Assembly (NCBI RefSeq): GCF_007989825.1
Contig: NZ_BJUA01000005.1
Coordinates: 124,001-188,000 of the forward strand
Reading direction: 5' to 3'
Source: Cellulomonas persica
GTDB taxonomy: Bacteria > Actinomycetota > Actinomycetes > Actinomycetales > Cellulomonadaceae
Length of the DNA stretch: 64,000 nt
In this document: piece after piece, positions 46,719 through 47,177 of the stretch
Layout: each line of letters begins with the position of its first letter
How positions within the stretch are numbered: position 1 is the first letter of the stretch
Notes under the pieces: model-generated
The model's database searches: none
What the model was told of the DNA's origin: nothing
What the model saw: the letters and a program-made list of their open reading frames with translations, nothing else
Position numbers and translations under genes: made by a program

Positions 46719-46749
46719 ACGGCCGGCCCGGGAAGCCCGGACCGGCCGT
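46719..46749 (-). terminator. Terminator hairpin after the riboswitch-controlled ORF
   Basis: ACGGCCGG and CCGGCCGT close a stem that continues inside as CCGGG/CCCGG around an AAG loop. It begins 30 bases after the 49-residue ORF (minus strand), so the riboswitch transcript probably ends here. Confidence 0.75.
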
Positions 46750-46778: not shown

Positions 46779-46928
46779 TCAGGCCGCGGCGCGCTCCCGC
46801 TGCGTCGGCAGTGCCGTGAGGGCACCCGCTGCGGCCGCCATCGCGCTCCACGCCTGGGCGCGGGTGCGGAAGGAGGCGGGGGTGGTGGGCGACTGCGACG
46901 GTTCGGCGGGGAGGCCGGTCTGGTCCAT
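46779..46928 (-). CDS. 49-residue ORF under c-di-GMP riboswitch control
   Basis: 49 residues from an ATG with AGGAAG seven bases upstream. The N-terminal half is polar and Pro/Thr/Ser-rich; residues 26-40 form an Ala-rich, weakly hydrophobic stretch (AWSAMAAAAGALTAL), and the end is basic and Ala-rich. No family is recognised and no signal peptide or cysteine is present. That it is a real gene follows from its position directly behind a complete riboswitch, the good ribosome site, and a terminator after it. It could be a small protein that binds a c-di-GMP-controlled partner, or a leader peptide; both are inference. Confidence 0.7.
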   Translation of the reverse strand: MDQTGLPAEPSQSPTTPASFRTRAQAWSAMAAAAGALTALPTQRERAAA

Positions 46929-46936
46929 GATCGCTT

Positions 46937-47025
46937 CCTGTCTGTTCGGTAGCCCGGCTGACCGTCGAGGGTCCCGTGGCTTTGCGTCCCCTCCTCGCGG
47001 AGGGTTTGCCGTTATCGCTGACAGG
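46937..47025 (-). ncRNA. Cyclic-di-GMP-I (GEMM) riboswitch
   Basis: Read on the minus strand, the core is CGGCAAACC, then a hairpin CCCUCC-GCGA-GGAGGG with a GNRA tetraloop, then GGACGCAAAGCC, a second hairpin closed by GACC/GGUC, and finally CAGCCGGGCUACCG, the tetraloop receptor. This is the complete c-di-GMP-I aptamer consensus in the right order. Flanking CCUGUC (47020-47025) and GACAGG (46937-46942) can form the closing helix. The 3' arm of that helix contains the first three bases of the AGGAAG ribosome site of the 49-residue ORF, so ligand binding would be expected to hide it. The region upstream to 47177 shows nothing else. Confidence 0.9.
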
Positions 47026-47177
47026 TAGGAAGGTAGTTCAGATCACTTACCCGGCCAAGGGCACGAAGCGGCCAAATACGGACAGCGAGCAAAATCACCC
47101 GTTCGGACCAGTGAAAACCTGGGCGTTCTGTCCCTTTGGTCCCGGGTCCTGGTGGTCCCACGAAGCGGTGAACCGGA

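Follow-up and report, generated by a model that had tools for sequence, protein, structure and literature searches.

The unit described here may be compared with four known systems: the c-di-GMP-I (GEMM-I) riboswitches (RF03167/RF01051), the truncated transcription-factor microproteins, most of which come from plants, the BldC family (NF033787; PDB entries 6AMA and 6AMK), and the control of Streptomyces development by BldD–c-di-GMP and BldC. BldC forms head-to-tail oligomers in which F21, V23 and W31 pack on L11', I40', T42', L43' and G44' of the neighbouring protomer, as described in PMC5859096, and in Streptomyces it directly activates a diguanylate cyclase gene (PMC6428758, PMC5859096). In Streptomyces c-di-GMP and BldC belong to a single network, as is proposed here; unlike in Streptomyces, c-di-GMP would here act on bldC through a riboswitch. 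The name c-di-GMP-I-GGC appears as a model name in PMC9943018 and PMC12452182 and is also given in PMC11124144. In the open-licence literature no paper was found on BldC, c-di-GMP and a riboswitch together, an earlier description elsewhere being possible, and no title on Cellulomonas c-di-GMP riboswitches concerns this unit.

In the window, which is the whole 64-kb stretch of DNA that was analysed, the c-di-GMP-I-GGC aptamer on the minus strand is the sole Rfam match at gathering level (an overlapping hit from its clan was omitted by the tool), and its score exceeds the RF03167 gathering score of 59 over the full length of the model (Table 1). The complete c-di-GMP-I aptamer of the original prediction is borne out by the covariance search that had been proposed as its check. 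The GGC ahead of the AAACC strand would fit, by eye and in the assumed numbering, the ligand-pairing guanine G20. As in other c-di-GMP-I riboswitches, the covariance match is full-length and a ribosome site lies beside P1; the difference lies in the target, a lone microprotein without a family, which is paired with bldC. The overlap of the closing helix CCUGUC/GACAGG with the AGGAAG ribosome site, also predicted, is seen in the sequence and again when the leader is folded, since its minimum-energy structure (-40.3 kcal/mol, z -2.3, with three of 200 shuffles equally stable) contains the P1 extension. A sigma-70 consensus scan at the locus found no promoter; the -10-like box lies just before P1, so that transcription is expected to begin at the 5' strand of P1 or close to it.

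Table 1. Features of the riboswitch–microprotein unit and the basis of each assignment.
Feature	Coordinates	Strand	Basis
c-di-GMP-I-GGC riboswitch aptamer (RF03167)	46944..47019	-	cmscan 69.6 bits, E 2.1e-14, model 1-80 of 80
P1 extension, 5' strand CCUGUC	47020..47025	-	sequence; pairs with GACAGG in the minimum-energy fold
P1 extension, 3' strand GACAGG	46937..46942	-	overlaps the ribosome site; sequence and fold
Ribosome site AGGAAG	46939-46934	-	sequence
49-residue microprotein gene	46779..46928	-	ATG ORF; conserved family; dN/dS <1 in 14 close pairs; AlphaFold2 helix 18-39
GC-rich hairpin behind the stop codon (no T-run), where the transcript probably ends	46719..46749	-	fold; hairpins after the stop codon in relatives
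Probable -10 box TACCTT	47030..47035	-	by eye; relatives have a TA...T-type box close upstream of the aptamer
TGTCCGTATT, like the repeat in the optimised BldC site of Streptomyces whiI (TGTCCGAATT)	47075..47084	-	sequence; site from PMC5859096; such sites are enriched in the promoters
Shared upstream promoter element CCGAACGGGTGATTT	47092..47106	-	CGGGTGA in 57 of 70 microprotein promoters, 5.2 expected

Behind the stop codon lies a very GC-rich hairpin of 13–14 base pairs. The original prediction called it a strong terminator; a strong hairpin it is, but its role in termination is only probable, since the T-run that an intrinsic terminator has besides its GC stem is absent, and a canonical-terminator scan gave no match. 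In the 110 nt 3' of the stop codon at 44 genus loci, the best hairpin has an average score of 29.9, compared with 16.7 in Markov-sampled controls, and it beats its own control mean at 35 of the 44. The upstream neighbour of the unit is an aldo/keto reductase gene and the downstream neighbour is an ORF that is membrane-protein-like by eye (Pfam gave no match), and neither seems to be part of the unit. The locus may be pictured as giving a dedicated short transcript, with the probable -10 box before P1, the aptamer, a single ORF whose ribosome site would sit in the closing helix of the aptamer, and the hairpin after the stop codon.

The predicted ORF, with its ribosome site, begins with an ATG 15 nt past the end of the aptamer. 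Its lack of a recognised family was upheld: the window protein has no match in Pfam, NCBIfam (0 families at E up to 1) or PHROGs and none in a phage collection, the same three libraries gave nothing at E up to 0.01 for the 36 members of the four-genus alignment A2, and A2 has no match among PDB sequences. AlphaFold2 predicts a helix at residues 18–39, a break before a proline and a short low-confidence helix at residues 41–48 (mean pLDDT 73, pTM 0.38; mean pLDDT 92 for residues 21–30 and 74 for residues 31–40). Of the 33 distinct genus proteins 30 were aligned, and among them one residue each of Arg, Trp, Ala and Pro never varies; across four genera, the 36-row alignment retains the positions of Trp, Ala, Pro and Gln (the last two in part through selection), while the N-terminus drifts. 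The protein consists of a variable N-terminus, one helix and a VPxQ tail, with the Trp kept in four of the five genera.

In 14 disjoint pairs of at least 69% identity, dN/dS lies between 0 and 0.70 with a median of 0.27; in six more distant, poorly aligning pairs it lies between 0.54 and 1.78, and pooled over the 20 disjoint pairs it is 0.62, compared with 0.21 for bldC. Frameshifts among close relatives, named in the original prediction as counter-evidence, were not borne out: 40 of the 42 genus genomes carry the gene with its frame open. The microprotein ORF is a real conserved gene. It might still be a leader peptide or translational ornament, in which the transcript or an arrest matters and not the peptide: the ORF is short, stands alone and is followed by a hairpin, and the pooled dN/dS is of a height that would fit. 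However, the hairpin follows the ORF with no gene in between, the close pairs have a low median dN/dS, and the Trp, Ala, Pro and Gln positions (the last two partly by selection) are kept across four genera beside a drifting N-terminus, which makes this reading very improbable. As the main reading, a leader peptide for a downstream gene was rejected because the GC hairpin follows the stop codon.

The RF03167 search covered the genome of the window, 58 genomes of relatives and 150 genomes of the family, and gave two matches in the first, matches in 39 of the 58 and in 51 of the 150, and at least one match in each of the 36 genus genomes of the relatives set (the window genome included). Among 80 riboswitch places that were read, 37 precede an ORF of 38–58 residues (34 of the 36 genus genomes) and 36 precede a BldC of 70–75 residues (36 of 36), both classes having been assigned at this stage without any tail motif; the two genus genomes of this first set in which the microprotein was not found are both drafts of 89% completeness. 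Outside the genus, the microprotein class was assigned by a calling rule that includes the [VLIA]P.[QP] tail. In all, 186 distinct riboswitch places were read, three of them outside the family; after a 30-residue chance match (L208) had been removed from the microprotein set (71 to 70), they comprise 70 microprotein, 70 bldC and 46 other loci. A further 19 places and one profile-match locus were then read to fill gaps. A quick script applied to 27 riboswitch loci outside the family gave a candidate ORF at six, four loci that were not located and none at the rest, and these loci were left out.

In the 76 riboswitch-bearing genomes of the family, the microprotein is found in at least 70 and bldC in at least 72, the per-genome counts being lower bounds because not all riboswitch places of these genomes were fetched; of the six genomes in which the microprotein was not found, two are drafts of 89% completeness. 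By genus group, the microprotein and bldC are present in 40 and 41 of 42 genomes of g1 (the remaining one has a broken bldC frame), 16 and 15 of 16 in g160, six and seven of seven in g223, five and four of five in g155, and all three for both in g221; in g213 the microprotein is found in neither of two genomes and bldC in both, and the single g225 genome has neither. The search of related genomes for pairs of a riboswitch and a small ORF, which had been suggested at the outset, is thus answered by the 70 of 76 genomes. The microprotein, which had been taken for a stand-alone case, still has no family, but it is not an isolated oddity: with bldC it forms a recurrent pair of riboswitch targets in five genera, and the finding is therefore a regulon. 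This recurrent partnership is new relative to the original prediction, and turns a lone curiosity into a two-riboswitch set of microprotein and bldC in most of the riboswitch-bearing genomes examined. In draft genome G796, counted as without bldC, the bldC frame behind the riboswitch (L203) is broken, by an assembly error or a real loss.

Since an alignment from the genus alone (A1) gave no strong match in other genera, A2 was built as a 36-row profile of four genera, with the g155 proteins left out. In the 150 family genomes all 41 of its matches at E<1e-9 directly follow a c-di-GMP-I aptamer, 40 by RF03167 coordinates and the 41st at a locus that scores best with RF01051; at this threshold no microprotein gene without a riboswitch was found. 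The 15 weaker matches (E 4e-4 to 0.009) include the riboswitch-linked microproteins L050 and L054, and the profile misses the g155 proteins and those of genomes G795 and G612. A conserved, riboswitch-controlled microprotein family, absent from Pfam, NCBIfam and PHROGs, is thereby described.

The only other RF03167 riboswitch of the window genome precedes a BldC paralogue (contig C6, L295/L002), which reaches 100.4 bits with the NCBIfam HTH_BldC profile (cut-off 77). This genome contains three BldC-family genes over the cut-off and one weaker match; the member on contig C4 (L294) has a Streptomyces-like tail and no RF03167 match, and the third lies on contig C17 (L296). The arrangement would place the expression of BldC directly under c-di-GMP in a group that, unlike Streptomyces, we take to be non-sporulating.

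The start codon of the microprotein lies 11–16 nt past the aptamer in 66 of 70 loci and that of bldC 14–18 nt past it in 59 of 70, and a purine run like a ribosome site precedes the start in 60 and 62 of the 70, respectively. Because the start codon stands at a near-constant distance from the aptamer and the ribosome site lies in P1, c-di-GMP is likely to shut translation off, judging from the layout of the leader. On binding of c-di-GMP, P1 would be stabilised, the ribosome site would be held in the closing helix and translation of the microprotein would fall; at low c-di-GMP the microprotein would be made together with the BldC paralogue behind the second riboswitch copy. Pairing in the P1 extension was compared with re-paired controls, which reach the observed score in 14 of 1000 cases for the microprotein class, two of 1000 for bldC and 206 of 1000 for the other class; the base pair of the extension that was tested separately gave a Fisher p of 0.02, on related sequences. 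This covariation was not adopted as proof of the expression platform, the signal being too weak. Its weakness leaves some room for a switch of the opposite sense, in which c-di-GMP raises translation via an alternative structure, but the ribosome site is in or next to the 3' strand of P1 at near-constant spacing in both classes and most of it is paired in the minimum-energy fold, and we regard an ON switch as quite unlikely. Overall, the observation made in the original prediction was confirmed and its interpretation supported with two amendments, namely that a regulon is concerned and that the OFF logic is what we infer.

The riboswitch units also share a promoter element. Within the 250 nt before the aptamer, CGGGTGA is found at 57 of 70 microprotein, 53 of 70 bldC and 30 of 46 other loci, compared with 5.2, 4.1 and 3.6 expected from Markov-sampled controls, these counts not being independent because the loci are related. 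It lies mostly at about -82 in the microprotein class, and at about -76 and in the opposite orientation in the bldC class of the genus. In the window genome CGGGTGAWWT occurs at 12 sites (L270–L281) and the reversed pattern at none, and two of the sites belong to the riboswitch units. Among the ten others, five precede genes for a pilin (N_methyl), a bacterial sugar transferase, a polysaccharide pyruvyl transferase, a GH18-CBM2 protein and a PKD protein; at the PKD site, the other flank holds a GT4/DUF1972 glycosyltransferase at a distance of about 0.46 kb. Two more (L271 and L280) precede proteins without an assigned name, and no convincing gene start was found near L270, L275 and L281. Because CGGGTGA is common to both riboswitch promoters and to pilin and exopolysaccharide genes, the microprotein and bldC probably belong to a surface-lifestyle regulon, which suggests that the microprotein is part of a switch between free and surface-attached life. 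The sites marked by CGGGTGAWWT tie the riboswitch units to type IV pilin and exopolysaccharide genes, and a compact candidate c-di-GMP regulon in Cellulomonas is outlined, with two riboswitch genes, one promoter element and pilin and exopolysaccharide genes.

BldC-like half-sites AATTCGGAC with at most one free position are found in nine of 70 microprotein and ten of 70 bldC promoters, compared with 0.8 expected. It was tempting, from sites like AATTCGGAC, to take CGGGTGA as a BldC element; this was not adopted, since BldC sites are not bioinformatically predictable according to PMC6428758.

A relation of the microprotein to BldC is suggested at the level of profiles, which score above controls, and is not significant for single sequences. 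Five microprotein sets (g160, all groups, g1, g221 with g223, and g155) were compared with BldC by hhalign, the five tests not being independent because the set of all groups overlaps the others. The g160 set gave E 0.0007 with a probability of 27% and the set of all groups E 0.003 with 10%, the range across sets being 3–27%. In these two profiles the alignment covers α2 and the VPxQ tail of BldC and skips the wing, α2 being paired as VDPKTVTRWA of BldC with VPPQVLARWA of g160; for the g1, g221 with g223, and g155 sets it is confined to the tail region. The real score was reached by 0, 1, 7, 5 and 6 of 600 column shuffles for g160, all groups, g1, g221 with g223, and g155, respectively, and by 0, 0, 0, 0 and 3 of 93 unrelated segments of neighbouring families. 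The conserved Trp of the microprotein would correspond to W31 of BldC; in the g155 microproteins the Trp motif is absent and only the tail is kept. The [VLIA]PxQ tail is found in 65 of 70 riboswitch-linked BldCs and in 68 of 70 microproteins, the latter partly by the selection rule. With single sequences, the window protein scores 1.5 bits (E 1) with the BldC HMM and the best single microprotein has E 0.006 among 72 sequences. The g160 and all-groups profiles align to the recognition helix and the VPxQ tail of the BldC family, and the two genes stand under the same riboswitch class, but the microprotein cannot be classified as a member: it has no wing, neither the window protein nor the 36 A2 members (E up to 0.01) pass the cut-off of the HTH_BldC profile, and of a complete winged HTH (α1, α2, wing and α3) its 49 residues hold only the AlphaFold2 helices 18–39 and 41–48. 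A diverged full-length BldC stands behind a riboswitch in genome G758 (L190; 60 bits with the BldC HMM), with a tail VPTQVR like that of some g160 microproteins. A second locus, L307, was considered with it as a degenerate BldC that might bridge the two families; its 7.3 bits lie below shuffles that reach 13.4, and neither the intermediate nor the bridge was used.

The microprotein may then be viewed as the recognition helix of BldC with its C-terminal tail, the wing being deleted. Such a piece could, most simply, occupy the contact surface of V23 and W31, or the binding partner of the tail, and could dock on a BldC protomer without offering a wing to the next one, so that head-to-tail oligomers would be capped. 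The proposed likeness to truncated transcription-factor microproteins is that a shortened piece of a multimerising regulator would block its assembly; the differences are that the piece is bacterial and riboswitch-controlled here and that its interaction is a predicted one. That the microprotein modulates BldC in some way is possible but somewhat doubtful. It is rather unlikely that c-di-GMP sets both BldC and a wing-less, filament-capping mimic via two riboswitch copies, which would probably have arisen by duplication of a riboswitch–bldC unit. If true, this would offer a testable way for a small protein to limit a head-to-tail transcription-factor polymer. The whole explanation, in which a riboswitch-gated microprotein has bldC as its partner, belongs to a surface regulon and modulates BldC, we regard as evenly balanced.

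The same conservation and riboswitch linkage would also be expected of a real c-di-GMP lifestyle effector with another partner, such as the pilus or exopolysaccharide machinery, a sigma or anti-sigma factor or a protease adaptor, and they need no BldC; the likeness to BldC would then have arisen convergently, through a short helix rich in alanine and a short tail. In line with this, single-sequence similarity to BldC is not significant, the g155 group retains only the tail, and other riboswitch targets resemble, by eye, secreted glycosidases and DUF4214, EAL and GGDEF proteins. On the other hand, four of the five overlapping sets score BldC, which is the co-regulated protein, above all 93 unrelated segments, and the tail is common to most BldCs and microproteins, in the latter partly by selection. 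A partner other than BldC is thus a real possibility that falls a little short of an even chance.

Further riboswitch targets were noted beside the microprotein and bldC. In other genera these resemble EAL, GGDEF and secreted proteins, as judged by eye. In four genus genomes an extra RF03167 riboswitch (L043, L047, L069 and L040) precedes what is by eye a large secreted glycosyl-hydrolase-like protein. In g160, riboswitches at L127, L142, L184, L193, L197, L200, L202, L208 and L213 precede unrelated ORFs of 23–43 residues, which are followed by a similar gene start by eye and perhaps represent a second riboswitch-plus-short-ORF design.
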